Program-made: the position numbers and the translations under genes
Shown here: piece by piece, positions 1,992-42,571 of the stretch
Layout of the letters: each line of letters begins with the position of its first letter
Numbering within the stretch: position 1 is the first letter of the stretch
Source: a virus
Virus record (IMG/VR): IMGVR_UViG_3300036760_001528
Location: 1-44,918 of that record
Direction: 5' to 3' (one strand)
Length of the DNA: 44,918 nucleotides
Notes under the pieces: model-generated
The model's input: the letters and a program-made list of their open reading frames with translations, nothing else
The model's database searches: none
Told to the model about the DNA's origin: nothing

Positions 1992-3962
1992 TTAACATCC
2001 GTCCACCTGCCACATCACATCCCCACTGACAGGATTCCCTGCGGCATCAAACAGACATATATCCATACCTACCAAAGTAAGATTATCAGGCAGTGCTGTT
2101 CGAGGGATAGCACCCAATGGGGTTAAAGTTGGTGGTTTTGTTATTGCAAGAAAAGTTGTAGCGAATATAATTGATTTCACACCCTCCACAGGAACTGCAA
2201 CTATCCCATAATCCTGTTTCGGATTGGCCTGGATATTCACATATACTCTCTCTTTTACAATATAATAACTCTTATCATCCGAATTTTCAAACTCAAAATC
2301 CGCCATTAGATACCTTGCTGATATACCGTCTATAGTACTTGAAGCATCCCTTTTGACATATGATTCACCTATTGTTTGTTTTGTGTATAAGTAGGGGGTT
2401 ACAGAAGCTGATGCGTCCCCTATTTTTGTGATTGTCTTGTATAATGTGAATCTCCCGGATATAACCTGAGATAAATCAATTTCATTAGTTACTAATGTAA
2501 TAAATCCATAATAGACTCCACCAGGTGCTGGAACAGGCACACCCCATTGAAGATATGTACTTAAGGGGTAAGGTTGAGTTGCATCGTTCCACACCTTAGT
2601 AACATTAAATCTTTGAGTCCAGAGATAATCATATGAAGGGAATCCCCAGTCTGTATCAAGGGCAACCCTCGCTACTTTAGCATTTTCTACTGATGCCCCA
2701 TCAAGGTCAAAATCCCAATCCTGCTGAAAACCCATATAAGGATTAAGTGTTACGGTGACATCTGCATATTTCGCTGTATCAGTATATCCACCAACAGAAT
2801 CCTTAGCCTTCAGGAAATATCTCCATATACCTGAAGGACAATTTTTATCAAGATAGACCAGAGCATCTACAAATGTTATAAAACTTGCCGTAGCCCAAAT
2901 ATCAGTAGTAAATCCACGTCTAACTTCATAGCCAATAATATCGATATCTATAGCCGGTGCGGAATTATCAGGCATATGCCATTTCAATATGACCACATCC
3001 CCTGCCTCTGTAGCAGAAAGAGCCGCCCCATCTTTCCATGTAGGTTTCAGAAACTTCCCCTGGGGAGTAAAATTATTTATGAGTCCTGATGAAACCTTAT
3101 TCCATGTTGAGACTGTGACTACCTTGATATAATAATTTGTCAATTCGAGGACAGCCCTGAGTTCATAATTTGTGGCCGTAGTTATCCCCAATTTTGTATA
3201 AGTAATCCCACCATCCAGACTTGCTGATATCTCATAATGTTTCACGAAAGGCCAGGTTGAAGCAGTCCATGACATTTTTATATTGCTGATCCATGTACTG
3301 TCCCTAAGTTGCTGTAATTCTTCGGTCAATATAAGGTCGGTTGCATCCGTAGGGATTGATGAAGGATCAGGCAGATCAGTATCAGGATAAGTAGGTTCAT
3401 CCACTATCACATCACTGAAGAATGCGGGATCGTATTCCCTGCCAGTGATGATATAGCTGCCATCGCCCTGCGGTTCTACCGAGGTCGCATATAGAGACTT
3501 TTCGGTCAAACCTATACTGTGAGTCAAGCTAAATCGGTCAAGAGGTTGCAATCCCTTAGAGTTATATGTCCAGAATTGCACAATCAGATCACTCAGTCTG
3601 GAATTGATAAGATATGTGGCTACTCTTTTGGCCTGAGACAACAATAAAAAACCTGTGAGGTCATAAGATAATTGATGTATCTCATCATTAGTTTCAAGAG
3701 AGGGGTCTTCCAATGGCAGTTCTTCCACTGCTTCCCATATAGTCGGAGCAGTCCAGGAATAAACGATGCTATTAAGCATATCCGAAGATGGGATATCCAA
3801 TATCTTAATGTCCTTTATTTCACTTTCGACAAAAGAGGTGACTGATTCCCTTGGATGATCAAATAGGATTTTATATTTTCCACGAATTACAAGAATTTCA
3901 GATATATATCCTGAAATATATATCTCCTCAAAAATAATTCTTACTGCATTTTTATACGTCAT
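1992..3962 (-). CDS. Tail tip protein, C-terminal J-like part with FN3 domains
   Basis: A 656-residue protein. Residues about 20-150 (motif IRGKYKILFDHPRESV) match the middle of J/TipJ-like central tail-tip proteins, where a GK-x-K-L-x-x-D strand follows the N-terminal attachment domain. From about 225 to 400 there are fibronectin type III-like repeats (SWTASTWPFVKHYEIS; LKWHMPDN), and the rest is beta-rich. The N-terminal part expected of this family is encoded separately at 5824-6585, with three genes in between, so the tip appears to be a split protein. The start overlaps the stop of the small gene upstream (ATGA). It probably contacts the host receptor at the tail tip. Confidence 0.7.
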   Translation of the reverse strand: MTYKNAVRIIFEEIYISGYISEILVIRGKYKILFDHPRESVTSFVESEIKDIKILDIPSSDMLNSIVYSWTAPTIWEAVEELPLEDPSLETNDEIHQLSYDLTGFLLLSQAKRVATYLINSRLSDLIVQFWTYNSKGLQPLDRFSLTHSIGLTEKSLYATSVEPQGDGSYIITGREYDPAFFSDVIVDEPTYPDTDLPDPSSIPTDATDLILTEELQQLRDSTWISNIKMSWTASTWPFVKHYEISASLDGGITYTKLGITTATNYELRAVLELTNYYIKVVTVSTWNKVSSGLINNFTPQGKFLKPTWKDGAALSATEAGDVVILKWHMPDNSAPAIDIDIIGYEVRRGFTTDIWATASFITFVDALVYLDKNCPSGIWRYFLKAKDSVGGYTDTAKYADVTVTLNPYMGFQQDWDFDLDGASVENAKVARVALDTDWGFPSYDYLWTQRFNVTKVWNDATQPYPLSTYLQWGVPVPAPGGVYYGFITLVTNEIDLSQVISGRFTLYKTITKIGDASASVTPYLYTKQTIGESYVKRDASSTIDGISARYLMADFEFENSDDKSYYIVKERVYVNIQANPKQDYGIVAVPVEGVKSIIFATTFLAITKPPTLTPLGAIPRTALPDNLTLVGMDICLFDAAGNPVSGDVMWQVDGC

Positions 3963-36522: not shown

Positions 36523-38082
36523 TTATATCGCCTCCTTTAATTCCCCTCTCGAGAGGGGTGCAGGGGTGTGTTTCTTCCCCATCGGTATAAAGTTTTTAAT
36601 CGCCGCATTGAGCGATTCCCGCACCTTGGTTTCCTTTTCACTGCTCAGAGTATGAGGACGATTATTTATGACCAGTGATAATGTGCTTTTGTCCTCGCCG
36701 GTGGCTTCGACCAGTGCAGACAACTTGATATCGTATTTCTCCATGAGCTGCTTGATCCCGCCGCCGTAGATAGAGAATAGATCGAACACCGTGACCTTCT
36801 TAGAGCCATTCTGCAGTGCATTACCCATCAGGACAATCAATGCCTCCTGAAGCTCAAGAAAGTTCTTAGCCATCGGCAACTCTGAGATTGCCTTTACTGC
36901 CTCTTCCTCAAAATTATCCCCGACTGTTTCTCCTAAATAACGAATGACCTCTAAAGGCGCCAACCCTTTGAGTTTGTAGGTATCCGACCTGATGCCGAGG
37001 CGGATCTCCTCAAGGTTGCCTGTCTTTAGCTTGTCATACTGCCCGATGAGGATAATCGAGAAGAGGTTCTGCTTGCCCCTCCATTCATATTCCCTGATCC
37101 TTTTCAAAGCCCTCAGTGTGGTGGTATGCAGGCAGTGGGATTCCTCAATAATCAATATTACGGGTTTTTCATTGCCTGCCTCCCCTACGATTCTTCTGAC
37201 CTGATCGGCGCGGTCGTTGCGGTCCCGAGCAATAGGTTCTGCAGGACGCAATTTGCGGATCATCCTTCGCTCGATATCATGTATCCCGATCTTCTCCTTA
37301 TCAGCCGATGTGAGCTTCACGATATGGGCATTAACATTCTCCGAAGCGATCTCGATTGCTGTAGTCTTCCCAGCGCCCCAGGGAGCCACCACCGAGAACA
37401 TGGCGTTGGATTCCACAGCCATGGCAAAAATGCGTTTGAGGATATCCCCATCGCCGGTTCTGATGCGCACCTGCTCAAAGGGGTTCTTCCTATAGCCGTA
37501 AGCGGCCAGCGTTACATATCCGTTCTCCACAATCCTTTTCCTCCTTTCTTGTTGTCGTATGATTGTTTTTAGATCATTGCTTAACCTTTTCCATAAAGAA
37601 ATGTTTATGATTTTGTCATGCCAGAGATCCTTAGTCTGGCATCCAGTCTCTGGATTCCTGCCTGCGCAGGAATGACAACTTGATGTGCTCGCCATTCGTC
37701 GTGAATGATAGACCCGCTCACCATGGTCCGCAGGATATCTGTGAAAAGTCATGTCTTTGCTCGGCTTCCAGATATCCTTTAAAGTGAGGCCCCTGAGCCG
37801 AAGCCAGACTAAGGGGACTGTCCCAGAATTACGGGCCGAAGGCCGTAGATTCGGGACTGTCCCCAGCATTGCCAGTGCCACAATATATTTTTCTATTCTC
37901 TGGATAACATCCGCCTTATACACCGGCCTATACCCCCGGTTGAGGATCAGCCGCAGGGTTTCTTTATTCAGCCCGACTTGTTCTGCAACCTCGGCCTGCC
38001 CAATCCCGCATTCCGCCAACAAATCCCTTGCTATAACCGGCTTATACGGCTGCTGATAGACTTTCTTGAAACTTTTTCCCAC
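36523..38082 (-). CDS. MuB-like AAA ATPase, transposition target protein
   Basis: A 519-residue protein. Residues about 18-60 form a HTH (ARDLLAECGIGQAEVAEQVG) as in Mu B. The AAA domain begins near 195 with Walker A APWGAGKTT at 233-241 and Walker B PVILIIEES at 307-315. MuB delivers target DNA to the transposase. Residues 73-90 come from a GGGGACTGTCCC element and 136-156 from a family A repeat, both in the linker between HTH and ATPase. The C-terminus (KKHTPAPLSRGE) comes from a family B palindrome. It starts at GTG after GGAGGTGATGGA. Confidence 0.8.
   Translation of the reverse strand: MGKSFKKVYQQPYKPVIARDLLAECGIGQAEVAEQVGLNKETLRLILNRGYRPVYKADVIQRIEKYIVALAMLGTVPNLRPSARNSGTVPLVWLRLRGLTLKDIWKPSKDMTFHRYPADHGERVYHSRRMASTSSCHSCAGRNPETGCQTKDLWHDKIINISLWKRLSNDLKTIIRQQERRKRIVENGYVTLAAYGYRKNPFEQVRIRTGDGDILKRIFAMAVESNAMFSVVAPWGAGKTTAIEIASENVNAHIVKLTSADKEKIGIHDIERRMIRKLRPAEPIARDRNDRADQVRRIVGEAGNEKPVILIIEESHCLHTTTLRALKRIREYEWRGKQNLFSIILIGQYDKLKTGNLEEIRLGIRSDTYKLKGLAPLEVIRYLGETVGDNFEEEAVKAISELPMAKNFLELQEALIVLMGNALQNGSKKVTVFDLFSIYGGGIKQLMEKYDIKLSALVEATGEDKSTLSLVINNRPHTLSSEKETKVRESLNAAIKNFIPMGKKHTPAPLSRGELKEAI
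36537..36571. repeat. Family B palindrome at ATPase C-terminus
   Basis: CCCCTCTCGAGAGGGG followed by TGCAGGGGTGTG, coding for HTPAPLSRGE in frame. Confidence 0.8.
37615..37676. repeat. Family A repeat inside MuB-like gene
   Basis: GTCATGCCAGAGATCCTTAG ... CTGGATTCCTGCCTGCGCAG and ends GGAATGAC. It codes for CHSCAGRNPETGCQTKDLWH in the linker. Confidence 0.85.
37813..37864. repeat. Family F element inside MuB-like gene
   Basis: GGGGACTGTCCCAGAATT, an inner ACGGGCCGAAGGCCGT hairpin and GATTCGGGACTGTCCCC. It codes for LGTVPNLRPSARNSGTVP in the linker, directly after the HTH. Confidence 0.75.
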
Positions 38083-38110: not shown

Positions 38111-38213
38111 GTCATTCCTGCGAAGGCAGGAATCCAGAAAAAGACAACCTGGATTCCGCATCAAGTGCGGAATGACAAATAATTACGCTTCACGCCTCAC
38201 GTTTCACGGTCTT
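38111..38213. repeat. Family A repeat and family C tract
   Basis: GTCATTCCTGCGAAGGCAGG ... CATCAAGTGCGGAATGAC at 38111-38176, followed by CACGCCTCACGTTTCACGG at about 38188-38208. They fill the gap between the transposase and MuB-like genes. Confidence 0.85.
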
Positions 38214-39847
38214 TACATCGCTTGTCTTATCGACATTTGCGCCCTCACCTCAAGGGCGAAATTCTCTACAAACACTTTATTCATGCCATGTTCTTCAATC
38301 TGTTCCTCTATTACCCCTCTATTTTCCTGAGACATAAATATGCCCGGTAAATAACTCATGAATTCCTTCATCGCCTCCTGGATACTTGGATACCTGTCCG
38401 GCAGAGACAGCGGATCCTCAATGATTCTCTCTTCCTTCGTGCGTATCGGCATAGAGATAACCTTGTCATCCGTTCTTCCTTGGTAGACGCCTTTGAACTC
38501 TCCAGGTAAGAATCGTTCTTTGAGTGCCTGTGCTTCTTCTCTGATTTTTACGCCTGCAGGTTGTTTGTCTGTTTTAAATTCTCCGAGTTGAGGTATCACA
38601 TATGGGATAACGTCATATCTCTTGTGAGTGATTAAATCTTCAGCGACAATTTTCCTGTTTAATAATCCGACATATGCCCGAACATACGCATTTACCAGAC
38701 CCTTAACAAAATATTGGATACCGTCAATAGAAATTGTGCCATCAGGTTTGACCTGGCGATCGTAATAAGTAAAGACCGTATCAAAAGCTTCTTCCGCAAT
38801 ATCAATCACGCCGCCATCTTGTATAATGCTAAGCCATGCCTGCAATTTTGAAACTTTCAGATTTGGATGTTGCCTGTTATTGAAACGGACGGTATAATTC
38901 AAGAGCATTTCTCTGAGTTGAGTAAGAGGAATTTCTTGAGTCTCCCAGTGCGGTTGCATGAGAAATTCTCCGGCCTCAAACATTTGCCATAAAGATCTCC
39001 ATTTAATTTCAATCTTGCCTGTAGCTTCAGGATCATCCGGCATATGAGTTTTAATTTCAACGCCTATACGATTCAGAAATTCCTGCGTCGCCTTGGCTTT
39101 GGCAAGCGGGCCATTATCCATATAAATCCGTGAGGGCAACCCCCGGAAGGGAATGCGGATATCCGCTTTTTTCGAGAAAGCCCATTTTAGGGTCTTAATG
39201 GCCTCATTCGATGATTCACCCGGAGCAACATGAGGCATTGCAAGCCAATAGCGAGAATGATCGTCTACTAATCCGTGATACCATACTCTCAGATTTTCAA
39301 ATTTATCTTTGTTTTTATATCCCTTATCCGGGCGGATGCGTAAAATAGGTTCGTTGCCCTCAATGCGGTGCACATATAAATATTCCGATCCGGAAACATC
39401 ATATTGCACTTGTTCCATAGGTCGTTGTGCCTGAAATCTTTGCACACGGCCTTTAGAATCAAGGAGATTCATTTCGCGTATTTTGCGTGTGATTGTTCCC
39501 GGATGGATATCCTTTGCACTTTCAGGTATAAGACCGTTAATGATTGCCTTTTCGATGGTATATTCTATCGAGGGCTTACGCTTTACCCTTTGGGGGATTA
39601 GAGCATAAAGATGTGCTATGGCACAAGCGATGTCTTTCAGCCCCTGAATCTTCGACACGCCTTTGATTTTGCTTTCTTTTCTTTGTTCCGGCTTGTATAT
39701 CAGCTTTTTAAACTTTCGGTGCATTGTCTGGTAACTAACGCCAAAGGTTTCCGCAGCTTCATGGACAATATAAGTTTTTGCGCCGTTCGGCGTCATCTGC
39801 CATTTACGACATGACTCAGCAAGCATTAGAGGATCAATCTCTTTCAT
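38213..39847 (-). CDS. Mu-like DDE transposase/integrase
   Basis: A 544-residue MuA-type protein. The first 60 residues contain a HTH (VHEAAETFGVSYQTMHRKFK); the rve catalytic core carries Asp150 (QVQYDVSGSEY), Asp244 (IYMDNGPLAK) and Glu280 (ATGKIEIKWRSL). The last pair is 35 residues apart, the expected DD(35)E. A Mu-type C-terminal domain follows near 360-440 with a beta-barrel-like segment (DGTISIDGIQYFVKGLVNAY). It catalyses insertion and replicative transposition of the phage, and acts with the MuB-like ATPase downstream. Confidence 0.92.
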   Translation of the reverse strand: MKEIDPLMLAESCRKWQMTPNGAKTYIVHEAAETFGVSYQTMHRKFKKLIYKPEQRKESKIKGVSKIQGLKDIACAIAHLYALIPQRVKRKPSIEYTIEKAIINGLIPESAKDIHPGTITRKIREMNLLDSKGRVQRFQAQRPMEQVQYDVSGSEYLYVHRIEGNEPILRIRPDKGYKNKDKFENLRVWYHGLVDDHSRYWLAMPHVAPGESSNEAIKTLKWAFSKKADIRIPFRGLPSRIYMDNGPLAKAKATQEFLNRIGVEIKTHMPDDPEATGKIEIKWRSLWQMFEAGEFLMQPHWETQEIPLTQLREMLLNYTVRFNNRQHPNLKVSKLQAWLSIIQDGGVIDIAEEAFDTVFTYYDRQVKPDGTISIDGIQYFVKGLVNAYVRAYVGLLNRKIVAEDLITHKRYDVIPYVIPQLGEFKTDKQPAGVKIREEAQALKERFLPGEFKGVYQGRTDDKVISMPIRTKEERIIEDPLSLPDRYPSIQEAMKEFMSYLPGIFMSQENRGVIEEQIEEHGMNKVFVENFALEVRAQMSIRQAM

Positions 39848-40689
39848 TTCTTGCCGTACATTGCATCTTCTAATAAATCCAGAAGGTTATTGTATTGCGT
39901 CTTCATCGTCAGGATGCGTTGGTTATAAAGCGCTATAATAGGAAACCCGCCCTTGCCCTTTATCAATGGATCAGGAAAAGCAGATTTGAAATTAATTCTG
40001 TTGGCGAGAAGGACACATTCGGTAAGTTTGTGCTCAATTGTCTTAAAGAAGGCGTCGACACCTTCGGGCAGAGTGGGATCGATCAGTTGTACTTTAAGCT
40101 CATCACGCTCATTTTTAAGATCATCCCGTTCTGACTTTAATTTAAGGGTTTTTATCGCAAGAGTATCATCGAATTTTTCTGTAAGTTTTTTTATGACCCG
40201 CTTGAAATCGCGTACAGACATATCGTCAAATTCATCCAATGCCTTGCCATCGATGCCTTTTTCCTCGATCTCCTTGAGCTGTTCATCGGTCATGCCATGC
40301 ATCAAAGCCAGTAATTTTGACCAGTTTTTTTCGCCAAAAGCCTGTAACTTCTTCAATTCAATGCATTTTTTGGCAAACGTCATGTAGTTATCGGCACAAC
40401 GCTGAGACATGCCTCCAAAATCCTCTGAAATGATTTTCGCAAACGTTTGCGAATTTTCTCGGTGCTTGATCTCAAGAAGAATGCAACCGAGGCCAAGATG
40501 GATTCCAGCCTCTTGTCTTAAAAGCCATTTCCCCTGTTCAATATATGCCTTGAGGTTGTAATCGTCGCCAAAACCATAAGGTTCAAGAGCTACTTCGAGT
40601 TTCTTCATCTCTAAATCCCTCATCATAAGGGCCCTTCGTGCCAATATCTCTTCATTTGTCGGGTGGTCTGATTGTTTTCTATTTGCCAT
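39844..40689 (-). CDS. DUF3102-like protein
   Basis: A 281-residue protein using the ATG at 40689, after AGGAGGAAGAAAAGGC. The region about 60-120 (WLLRQEAGIHLGLGCILLEI; FAKIISEDFGGMSQRCADNY) matches DUF3102, a family with ParB-like or KilA-like neighbours in phages and plasmids. The central part is a coiled coil (ERDDLKNERDELKVQ). It lies directly before the transposase and overlaps it by four bases. The gene contains an 18-bp TTCGCAAACGTTTGCGAA palindrome, repeated upstream at 41248. Confidence 0.65.
   Translation of the reverse strand: MANRKQSDHPTNEEILARRALMMRDLEMKKLEVALEPYGFGDDYNLKAYIEQGKWLLRQEAGIHLGLGCILLEIKHRENSQTFAKIISEDFGGMSQRCADNYMTFAKKCIELKKLQAFGEKNWSKLLALMHGMTDEQLKEIEEKGIDGKALDEFDDMSVRDFKRVIKKLTEKFDDTLAIKTLKLKSERDDLKNERDELKVQLIDPTLPEGVDAFFKTIEHKLTECVLLANRINFKSAFPDPLIKGKGGFPIIALYNQRILTMKTQYNNLLDLLEDAMYGKK
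40436..40453. promoter_or_regulatory. 18-bp perfect palindrome (second copy)
   Basis: TTCGCAAACGTTTGCGAA inside the DUF3102-like gene, coding for NSQTFAK in frame. It is identical over 18 bases to the upstream copy at 41248-41269 and resembles LacI/PurR-family operators, which have the GCAAACGTTTGC core. Confidence 0.6.
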
Positions 40690-41041
40690 GCCTTTTCTTC
40701 CTCCTCTCTGCCTTATCAAGTGACAATGCCCGCAATAAAGTTTCTTTTGCTTTTCGCTCAAAATCGGCGGCATCTTTTAGTAATTTCAACAACATTTCAT
40801 CGCGTTCTGTGAATTTAATGCCACATTCCTCGAGTATTTTATTTAATGGTTCATCCTTCTTCCCGATCCAATAAAGCGCTTCATAATAAACACACTCTGC
40901 ATGATGGGCGCCAAAACGTTTTGCGAGCATGAAACTTATATCCTGAAGTAAACTCTCATAACTCCTTCCTATTTCGTCCACAAAATTCATAATTCCCATA
41001 ACCTTTTCAACATCTCCAAATATCTCTTTCTCTTTCATCAA
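40679..41041 (-). CDS. Hypothetical early protein
   Basis: A 120-residue protein. It is mainly helical (IMNFVDEIGRSYESLLQDIS; GAHHAECVYYEALYWIGKKD) with a basic C-terminus (LDKAERRKKRHGK). It overlaps the gene before it by four bases (TGATGA context) and the DUF3102-like gene by eleven. This arrangement suggests a coupled early operon. The family is not recognised; a DNA-associated role is possible given its basic tail. Confidence 0.5.
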   Translation of the reverse strand: MMKEKEIFGDVEKVMGIMNFVDEIGRSYESLLQDISFMLAKRFGAHHAECVYYEALYWIGKKDEPLNKILEECGIKFTERDEMLLKLLKDAADFERKAKETLLRALSLDKAERRKKRHGK

Positions 41042-41223
41042 TCCACCTCCGTAGAAATTTCTCTGAGTTCTTTTTCTATACCTGAAAGGATGTAATAAAG
41101 TCCTGCAGTTCCCTCTTCTGAAAGCCTGAAAACAAAGACTTTGTCTTGTGTGAGAGCATCAGTGATAAAGGCGAGTTTGCTGGCGCAGACATTGAGCCTG
41201 TCGCCGGGGTGTTCCTGTGCCAT
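41038..41223 (-). CDS. Small early protein (61 aa)
   Basis: The ATG at 41223 is chosen because AGGAGG lies six bases before it. The frame is open further upstream to about 41490, but that stretch runs through a promoter, a terminator and a palindrome and has no convincing start. The 61-residue protein reads MAQEHPGDRLNVCASKLAFI, then QDKVFVFRLSEEGTAGLYYI and GIEKELREISTEVD. It may be an alpha/beta early protein. A 14-bp GTGCCATATGGCAC palindrome covers the start codon, so the start may be folded in the RNA. Confidence 0.65.
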   Translation of the reverse strand: MAQEHPGDRLNVCASKLAFITDALTQDKVFVFRLSEEGTAGLYYILSGIEKELREISTEVD

Positions 41224-41230: not shown

Positions 41231-41247
41231 CTCCTTATAGTTTTAGC

Positions 41248-41269
41248 AATTCGCAAACGTTTGCGAATT
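41248..41269. promoter_or_regulatory. 22-bp perfect palindrome, probable operator
   Basis: A perfect inverted repeat centred on CAAACGTTTG, with the 18-bp core TTCGCAAACGTTTGCGAA and extra AA/TT ends. It lies between the terminator of the structured RNA region and the ribosome-binding site of the 61-residue gene. The core resembles PurR/LacI-type operators. Confidence 0.6.
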
Positions 41270-41281
41270 TTCCACGGCAAT

Positions 41282-41297
41282 AAAAAAGCCCGAGTAT
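41282..41297 (-). terminator. Rho-independent terminator end of the small RNA
   Basis: The descending arm ATACTCGGGCTT is followed by TTTTTTATT on the - strand. The ascending arm is at 41341-41352. The stem is 12 bp without a mismatch, and the closed loop itself contains two hairpins. Confidence 0.65.
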
Positions 41298-41424
41298 TGC
41301 TACGGTCTATAAGAACCGCTCCCAGCCTCACGGCTGAAAGATACTCGGGCTTGAACTGCCCTGAAACTAAAAACCCCCTTTCCGCATCTTCGCGGAGGCC
41401 GGAGTCAGCCCTTATAGTTATAGC
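41282..41424 (-). ncRNA. Candidate structured small RNA or leader
   Basis: On the - strand a promoter at 41431-41460 would start RNA near 41424. The RNA has a CCGC-GAAGAT-GCGG hairpin, then a 12-bp stem formed by AAGCCCGAGTAT (41341-41352) and ATACTCGGGCTT (41286-41297). That stem encloses CAGCC-GUGA-GGCUG with a GNRA loop (41323-41336) and a CGGT...ACCG hairpin (41303-41318). It ends in six uridines. CCGGCCTC near its start (41395-41402) can pair with GAGGCUGG inside the terminator region (41322-41329), giving an alternative fold. The promoter, folded core and terminator define about 143 bases. It resembles no RNA family that I recognise. Confidence 0.6.
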
Positions 41425-41430
41425 ATCATC

Positions 41431-41460
41431 AATATATAATGATAATGCCGGTACTGTCAA
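41431..41460 (-). promoter_or_regulatory. Sigma70-like promoter for the structured RNA
   Basis: On the - strand TTGACA (41455-41460) is followed after 16-18 bases by TATATT/TATATA (41431-41438). The -35 is a consensus hexamer. It lies just after the winged-helix gene and drives into the structured RNA and the early operon. Confidence 0.65.
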
Positions 41461-41467
41461 GAGTTTT

Positions 41468-41953
41468 TTATTGACCATTTCCAAAACCATTGCCTAAATA
41501 CCTTTTTACCGTCTCACCCAGATTCGCCCGCACTGCATCTGCAATCCGCACTATCCGCGGGCTCAGGCGCCAGCCATCGGCGATCTGTTCTGCCCAGCCA
41601 CGGAATTTCAGGTTGTGCAAGGCCCATATGGTCTTATTATTGGTTATGCTTAGAGCCGTCATGATCTCATCAACAGTCGTGGGCCTGAAGACGTCCGTGG
41701 CAAGATACTCCACGATCTTCATAAGATTCTGCTGGCTCTCAAGCGTAAAATCCGTCTTCTTCTCTTTCTTTGTTTTTGTGTCATTCCCGCTCTTGTCCGC
41801 CTTAGGCGGATGAATCGGGAATCCTTCTTCGCTTACTGCTTTCTGCCTACTGCCTTCTTGTTCTTGCGTGCTTATTGCCTTCTGCCTACTGCCTCCTTGT
41901 TCTTGGTCGCTGCCTTCTGCCTTCTGCTTACTGCCTTCTTGTTCTTGTTCCAC
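41468..41953 (-). CDS. Winged-helix regulator with repeat-derived N-terminus
   Basis: The GTG at 41953 follows GGAGGCTGGTA and overlaps the TAG of a small membrane gene, giving 161 residues. Residues 2-42 come from a family E tract (QEQEGSKQKAEG, GSRQKAIS); 42-58 come from a family A element (GFPIHPPKADKSGND). The native domain is about 65-150: FTLESQQNLMKIVEYLATDV, then TTVDEIMTALSITNNKTIWA and LKFRGWAEQIADGWRLSPRI, an IclR-type winged helix. It probably regulates early genes and lies just upstream of the promoter at 41460. Confidence 0.65.
   Translation of the reverse strand: MEQEQEGSKQKAEGSDQEQGGSRQKAISTQEQEGSRQKAVSEEGFPIHPPKADKSGNDTKTKKEKKTDFTLESQQNLMKIVEYLATDVFRPTTVDEIMTALSITNNKTIWALHNLKFRGWAEQIADGWRLSPRIVRIADAVRANLGETVKRYLGNGFGNGQ
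41780..41828. repeat. Family A half element inside winged-helix gene
   Basis: GTCATTCCCGCTCTTGTCCG with a CCGCCTTAGGCGG core and ATCGGGAATCC end; coded as GFPIHPPKADKSGND. Confidence 0.8.
41827..41950. repeat. Family E tract inside winged-helix gene
   Basis: Tandem units such as CTGCCTACTGCCTTCTTGTT and CTTGCGTGCTTATTGCC, coded as QEQEGSRQKA-type repeats. The TTGTTCTTG part differs from other family E tracts. Confidence 0.8.
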
Positions 41954-42096
41954 TACCAGCCTCCGATCATCAGATACCCTGCATAAAAAAGAACAATCGC
42001 CACCCATACGATAATGCCGAAGATGATTCCATTGACGATGCCCTTTGCCGCTGTAAACCCCTCCGGAACTTCCCTATAAAACCATCTTTTAATCAT
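41953..42096 (-). CDS. Small single-span membrane protein (47 aa)
   Basis: A 47-residue protein with an excellent ribosome-binding site (AGGAGGGGTGAATC) and a clear membrane segment at about 21-42 (NGIIFGIIVWVAIVLFYAGY). The N-terminus is positive (MIKRWFYREVPEGF), suggesting an N-in topology. The TAG overlaps the GTG of the winged-helix gene. It lies between the phosphatase and regulator genes. It could act in superinfection exclusion or control, which is inference. Confidence 0.65.
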   Translation of the reverse strand: MIKRWFYREVPEGFTAAKGIVNGIIFGIIVWVAIVLFYAGYLMIGGW

Positions 42097-42112: not shown

Positions 42113-42571
42113 CTATTCGTCATTCCTGCGAAGGCAGGAATCCAGAGCTATTTTCCTCAATGAATTCTTCCACCAGAACATCCATCGGCTGTGCCCATTA
42201 TCGAGACACTCCTGATATGCCTTCTCAAAAGACCAGCCCTGAAAGATCATCCTGTAAGCCGCAACAACAAAACCCGTGCGGTCCCTGCCATGCTTGCAAT
42301 GTACTAACAAAGGTTTCCTTAAAATGACGAGGTACCTAACTACAATCTTTAAGAGCCACGGATCCGGCGCACGGAAGCCAGACATGGGGATTAGTGTCAA
42401 CTCAAGGTCTAAATCACGGCAGGATTGCTTTTCCCATACTCTAAAGCATGGATCGTCCTCCAGACTGAGGATGTTTTTAATACCATAGATTTTCAGGAAT
42501 TGCAGGTCAAGGAATTCTGGCCTGCTACTCCGGTAGATATTCTCTGTTACATTATTAATAATGTAAGACAT
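42113..42571 (-). CDS. Tyrosine/dual-specificity phosphatase-like protein
   Basis: A 152-residue protein with the complete signature HCKHGRDRTG at 91-100, including catalytic Cys92 and Arg98. Upstream are family blocks (NIYRSSRPEFLDLQFLKIYG; IKNILSLEDDP) with the Asp-containing loop probably near PMSGFRAPD at 62-70. Such enzymes hydrolyse phosphoester bonds in proteins, nucleotides, RNA caps or inositol phosphates. It is unusual in an early Mu-like region. The final residues (DSCLRRNDE) come from a family A repeat. Confidence 0.8.
   Translation of the reverse strand: MSYIINNVTENIYRSSRPEFLDLQFLKIYGIKNILSLEDDPCFRVWEKQSCRDLDLELTLIPMSGFRAPDPWLLKIVVRYLVILRKPLLVHCKHGRDRTGFVVAAYRMIFQGWSFEKAYQECLDNGHSRWMFWWKNSLRKIALDSCLRRNDE
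42119..42145. repeat. Family A hairpin at phosphatase C-terminus
   Basis: GTCATTCCTGCGAAGGCAGG with AATCCAG end. It supplies the last nine residues of the phosphatase; the stop is just beyond it. Confidence 0.85.

Follow-up and report, generated by a model that had tools for sequence, protein, structure and literature searches.

Organization of the locus

The window analysed here is the complete IMG/VR virus record IMGVR_UViG_3300036760_001528 (positions 1-44,918; 44,918 nucleotides), which encodes a B3/Mu-type transposase and belongs to a Mu-like phage. An operon on its reverse strand opens with a 61-aa open reading frame (ORF) and reaches down to the transposase and MuB-like genes (Table 1); the stop codon of the 61-aa ORF overlaps the start of the following gene (TGATG). 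No antirepressor family was matched among the operon genes, which include those for the transposase and the MuB-like protein. Likewise, the 61-aa ORF found no relatives in the viral contigs searched; it is weakly similar to a 73-aa ORF that stands first behind a C4-like RNA in a bacterial genome (locus L032; E 0.0015, best shuffle 0.19), which suggests that small proteins of one family occupy the position that icd has in phage P1. In two phage relatives (L007 and L008), the transposition genes are contiguous with an upstream regulator, and neither the RNA described below nor the 61-aa ORF was seen at the corresponding place. Because these relatives carry transposition genes without the RNA, the RNA is an optional cassette, and any control that it exerts is optional as well.

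Between the terminator of the RNA and the 61-aa ORF lies a perfect palindrome, an exact second copy of which occurs at 40436-40458 inside the DUF3102-like gene (common core TTCGCAAACGTTTGCGAA; 0.01 expected from shuffles). This pair looks like an operator or a partition-type site. Two further features of the neighbourhood were recorded. A dual-specificity/tyrosine phosphatase-like gene lies in the phage early region (42113-42571), and the early genes at 41468-42007 and 36523-38082 contain in-frame repeat-derived stretches (one being HSCAGRNPETGC...), which look like dispersed genomic repeats that landed inside genes.

Table 1. The leader RNA, its antisense and target elements, and the operon behind it (window coordinates).
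Feature	Position	Strand	Basis or remark
Sigma-70-type promoter TTGACA-18-TATATT	41431..41460	-	11/12 consensus match
a1 target half-site UGCUA	41421..41425	-	complementary to a' (41302-41296)
b1 target half-site CUAUAAGGG	41409..41417	-	complementary to P3 loop b'
Whole leader / sRNA precursor	41282..41424	-	fold z -3.6; 5' end predicted
5' hairpin with UUUUU behind it, candidate first terminator (T1)	41369..41404	-	sequence
C4/c4-2-like three-way-junction core ending in intrinsic terminator	41282..41352	-	c4-2 match, compensatory pairs, model R2
P2 hairpin with GUGA (GNRA) tetraloop	41319..41340	-	fold, alignment
P3, second hairpin inside the 12-bp stem	41303..41318	-	fold
b' antisense element UUCUUAUAG, P3 loop	41307..41315	-	pairs b1 and b2; position of phage P1 C4 b'
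a' antisense element UAGCAAU, junction strand	41296..41302	-	pairs a1 and a2; position of phage P1 C4 a' (CUGUCAA)
22-bp perfect palindrome AATTCGCAAACGTTTGCGAATT	41248..41269	.	possible operator; second copy elsewhere
a2 target half-site AUUGCUA	41244..41250	-	7 pairs with a'
b2 target half-site CUAUAAGGA	41232..41240	-	9 pairs with b'
61-aa ORF	41038..41223	-	first gene of operon, position of phage P1 icd; start at 41223
119-aa operon gene	40679..41038	-	without family match
DUF3102-like gene (name from the earlier note)	39844..40773	-	phrog_1748, unknown function
Mu/B3-type DDE transposase	38213..39847	-	rve domain; tblastn to B3-like phages
MuB-like AAA ATPase	36523..38082	-	AAA_22; phrog_296 DNA transposition protein

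Promoter and fold of the leader RNA

An earlier note, made from the sequence alone, had proposed a promoter and a structured RNA in front of the operon, and both are borne out. The TTGACA/TATATT promoter is the best match within the last 10 kb of the window, and most of the homologues described below likewise have a TTGAC-like -35 element, some 80-115 nt ahead of their RNA core. The predicted start of the RNA falls directly past the stop codon of the gene upstream, and six U residues form its 3' end. Over 41424-41282 it folds at -57.2 kcal/mol, as compared with -43.6 +/- 3.8 for shuffled sequences, with a GNRA-capped hairpin and a second hairpin enclosed by a perfect 12-bp stem (41352-41341 with 41297-41286). 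The core thus defined has the three-way junction of the C4 clan, composed of a closing stem P1, a tetraloop hairpin P2, and a hairpin P3. An open frame runs through the RNA without a credible start.

Kinship with C4 RNAs

The earlier note recognized no known family in this RNA. That statement no longer holds, although standard Rfam scans, which it had recommended, were indeed empty: the whole window at curated cut-offs gave no match, and a permissive scan of 501 bases also missed c4-2 (RF02944, clan CL00128), which was revealed only by the 71-base core on its own. The core aligns end to end with c4-2 at 32.5 bits (E 7e-6), below the gathering cut-off of 41 bits, and ordinary Rfam scans therefore miss the RNA.

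Homologues were sought in bacterial genomes from the phylum of Syntrophorhabdus (Thermodesulfobacteriota). A covariance model built from the RNA of the window alone (R1) found L020 (7.8e-14), L021, L023, L028, and L029, of which L023 exceeds the c4-2 cut-off at 45.6 bits. Two more fitting loci were contributed by c4-2 matches that pass the cut-off (L031 and L032); the fit of a further match (L033) is ambiguous. Rejected candidates comprise one R1 match inside an ABC transporter gene (L022) and two c4-2 matches with unsuitable folds and layout (L034 and L035). Searches outside these genomes were negative: viral contigs matched neither a pattern of the terminator stem nor one of the 5' domain, and a DNA search of phage records had no matches.

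Eight cores can be aligned, and their consensus is a three-way junction. Compensatory changes, which the earlier note had named as a test, are present: in these first eight sequences both sides of 20 of the 25 base pairs change, none of 500 shuffles reaches the observed covariation on any measure, and sliding the alignment lowers the paired share from 82.5% to 52% or less. Conservation that follows codons was not seen; pairing and target complementarity are kept instead. A refined model from the eight cores (R2) matches 23 of 395 genomes of this phylum and adds 19 loci, giving 27 aligned loci in total; the P2 tetraloop reads GUGA, GCGA, or GUAA in this larger set. It is thus well supported that this RNA is a real, diverged antisense RNA of the C4 clan, closest to c4-2. 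With c4-2 it shares the three-way junction, the tetraloop hairpin, the P3 loop, and the terminal U run; unlike c4-2, its core lacks the internal loops of the closing stem, and the RNA carries an extra 5' hairpin domain that it has in common with L020, L028, and L029.

A probable two-part antisense code

Two elements, b' in the P3 loop and a' in the junction strand, are complementary to a bipartite site, a1-b1 (UGCUA...CUAUAAGGG, 41425-41409), at the RNA's own 5' end. In the C4 clan, too, these elements are variable and fit an a1-b1 site that lies upstream. The earlier note had instead pointed to a possible antiterminator pairing of 41395-41402 with 41322-41329. This complementarity does exist (nine pairs including G-U), yet several of equal size are present, and this one bears no sign of conservation; the pairings that co-vary are those of 41425-41409 with 41315-41307 and 41302-41296. 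Indeed, the loops of the homologues differ in sequence and their 5' ends differ correspondingly. When leaders were permuted among the eight loci, b' matched as well in 2 of 40,320 arrangements and a' in 1 of 40,320, counts that include the true arrangement. In the 19 loci not used in finding the a'/b' rule, the score against the own leader was 552 as compared with 462 +/- 18, and none of 20,000 permutations was as good. Both sets of permutations ignore shared ancestry, but the loops differ strongly among loci. Their a1-b1 usually lies 49-67 nt upstream of the core.

A second site, a2-b2 (41250-41232), follows the RNA, and together the two sites explain the repeat TGCTAWAACTATAAGG (two matches, 0.01 expected from shuffles). 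Here b2 overlaps the Shine-Dalgarno sequence AAGGAGG (41236-41230) of the 61-aa ORF, so that it lies on the ribosome-binding sequence of the next gene as in the C4 RNAs of phages P1 and P7. Within the 75 nt downstream, the a2-b2 score is 35 for the window's RNA, and no other downstream region scores above 24; summed over loci, 8 of 20,000 permutations were as good. Sites of this kind that overlap a Shine-Dalgarno sequence or start codon also occur in L046, L047, L063, and L050, and that of L053 falls within the first codons. However, most homologues, which do have a1-b1, show no convincing a2-b2 in the 75 nt downstream. A translational block therefore cannot be the general rule, and two modes of action are likely.

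In seven homologues (L023, L031, L032, L051, L053, L056, and L061), short ORFs preceded by a Shine-Dalgarno sequence lie just after b1 and run into the C4 core; they start alike (MAIF/MVIF/MAFC-like) and, judged by sequence, could possibly encode a translated leader peptide. No such ORF precedes the core in the window.

Comparison with known systems

In the C4 RNAs of phages P1 and P7, the P1 stem bears a GGW RNase P site at its 5' end, and processing yields approximately 77 nt. The window's RNA has no such motif at this position. Annotated phage P1, used as a control for C4 geometry, showed a junction strand CUGUCAA (a') matching a1 and a2, and a P3 loop UCACUAAC (b') matching b2, which overlaps the icd Shine-Dalgarno sequence. 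The window thus resembles P1/P7 C4 (RF01695) with c4-a1b1 (RF03163) in the order promoter, a1b1, C4, and a2b2 at a Shine-Dalgarno sequence, in the small ORF overlapping the next gene, and in the placement of b' in the P3 loop and a' in a junction strand. The P1 and P7 RNAs, processed by RNase P, repress an antirepressor operon; a' makes the pairing specific, and b' blocks access to the ribosome site (PMC5320573; PMC12197685). A list of motifs from 2010 already includes c4 and c4-a1b1 (PMC2864571). Two differences stand out. Phage P1 C4 is cut by RNase P from a precursor at a GG site (PMC5320573), whereas the 3' end of the window's RNA is an intrinsic terminator; and phage P1 C4 silences icd-ant, whereas the products of the operon here are transposition proteins. 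Phage P1 C4 is not detected by model R2.

Parallels are also offered by two other leader RNAs. In layout, phage P4 CI RNA with seqA/seqC is likewise an antisense RNA cut from a leader and has targets on both its sides, but P4 immunity works by ending transcription ahead of the replication genes (PMC4825925). IsrK (STnc1160) of Gifsy-1 combines a short terminated leader with a read-through mRNA that shares complementary sequences, but the short form of IsrK is an activator, promoting translation of the long mRNA (PMC4825925). Rfam scans found no isrK match in the window. Separately, the Rfam isrK model matches the a1b1 leader of phage P1 (L036, 20231-20312) at 35.1 bits, below the isrK cut-off; by sequence, the P1 leader and Gifsy IsrK look related.

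Neighbourhoods of the homologues

A recombinase gene lies within 2 kb downstream on the same strand in 13 of the 27 loci and downstream on the opposite strand in one, with none upstream; a few contigs are too short for the full 2 kb. Pfam integrases are encoded downstream on the same strand in L020, L028, L029, L023, L049, L055, L057, L058, L059, L060, L061, and L062, and a serine recombinase in L021. The loci themselves were chosen by RNA; four of the integrases served to build the search profile and are not independent of it. tRNA genes come after three of the integrases, as expected of integrated elements. L063 is nearer the situation of phage P1: where other loci have a recombinase, its downstream gene is of the Bro-N (antirepressor-type) family. 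Close downstream of the serine recombinase locus L021, Rfam int-alpA RNA is matched at 37.2 bits (2938-3008) and, on sequence grounds, may be a second RNA linked to integration.

Proposed mechanism and alternatives

The earlier note left open whether the RNA is an sRNA or a leader; it resembles both, and it is placed to control the operon of the DUF3102-like, transposase, and MuB-like genes. We propose, with a probability of roughly 0.7, that it is an autogenous antisense repressor of this mobility operon acting through a block at a2-b2; the RNA probably switches the mobility genes off. The leader would be transcribed from the promoter at 41460-41431, fold into the C4-type junction, and mostly end at its own terminator as a stable antisense RNA, displaying a two-part sequence in P3 loop and junction strand. 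On read-through transcripts it would pair with a2-b2, cover the Shine-Dalgarno sequence of the 61-aa ORF, and block its translation. Expression of the downstream genes as far as transposase and MuB is proposed to fall because the reading frames overlap. Pairing with a1-b1 at the 5' ends of new leaders may serve as a decoy or trigger early termination at T1. The predicted outcome is autogenous repression of the transposition operon in the lysogen and against incoming relatives. We infer that the RNA is transcribed and acts in trans, that it blocks translation with a polar effect on the later genes, and that transposition is thereby reduced; the fold, the C4 kinship, the co-evolution of a'/b' with a1/b1, the position of a2-b2, and the gene order are computed results. 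By analogy, the arrangement fits the P1 mode, in which the Shine-Dalgarno sequence of a small first ORF is covered and an overlapping operon silenced. Several observations count against this reading. The palindrome points to a protein regulator working at the same place, the score lies below the c4-2 cut-off, the GGW motif is missing, a2-b2 is lacking in most homologues, L007 and L008 do without the RNA, and L063 has Bro-N in place of a recombinase.

The most serious competitor, possible but rated below even odds, is an attenuator akin to P4 immunity, in which the RNA pairs with nascent a1-b1, frees T1, and stops transcription before the operon, with a2-b2 secondary. P4 CI RNA works in this way through seqA/seqC (PMC4825925), most homologues have a1-b1 alone, a T1-like hairpin with a T-run stands at the corresponding place in 15 of 27 loci (5.6% of shuffles), and T1 is predicted to form more readily in 9 of 12 loci once a1-b1 is masked. 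However, the effect is weak relative to shuffled upstream sequence (Fisher p 0.03), and blocking a1-b1 leaves T1 unchanged in the window (0.55 to 0.56). It is rather unlikely that a1-b1 and b'-a' form an intramolecular pseudoknot that shapes or stabilizes the RNA without action in trans: complementarity in cis occurs in most members and would co-vary likewise, but a cis-only role does not predict the second site at a Shine-Dalgarno sequence in the window, L046, L047, and L063, as in phage P1 C4.

The remaining two explanations fare far worse. The order of promoter, structured RNA, terminator, and gene, together with pseudoknot-like pairing, would suit a type III toxin-antitoxin system consisting of an antitoxin RNA, a terminator, and a toxin gene. 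This is very improbable, as inspection of the RNA by eye showed no tandem repeats, and the first downstream genes vary by locus (61-aa ORF, integrase, Bro-N) and match no toxin family. An ordinary intrinsic terminator of the upstream gene with a chance promoter would account for an RNA that starts directly past the upstream stop and ends in a U-tract. It would leave covariation, Rfam kinship, co-evolving target sites, and the recurrent position before recombinase genes without explanation, and is excluded by these comparative data.

Implications

C4 RNA is chiefly known as the antirepressor silencer of P1-like phages. Our literature search found no paper tying C4-type RNAs to integrase or transposase operons, although the c4-2 literature may already note the link. 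Here, a C4 architecture missed by standard Rfam scans stands in front of a Mu-like phage's transposition operon and, in about half of the 27 loci, precedes recombinase genes. We tentatively suggest, as a conjecture with the odds somewhat against it, that mobile elements of Thermodesulfobacteriota harbour a broad C4-type branch specialized in the operons of recombinases, be they tyrosine integrases, a serine recombinase, or a Mu-type transposase, through which a resident element silences its own integration or transposition genes and those of incoming relatives. If true, this would amount to an RNA-based mobility immunity whose antisense code has two parts and evolves fast; in phage P1, by contrast, what is controlled is an antirepressor. 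Should the proposed action hold, small elements and transposable phages of this phylum would control integration and transposition by antisense RNA, and their immunity groups would be predictable, since the antisense specificity could be read from sequence.
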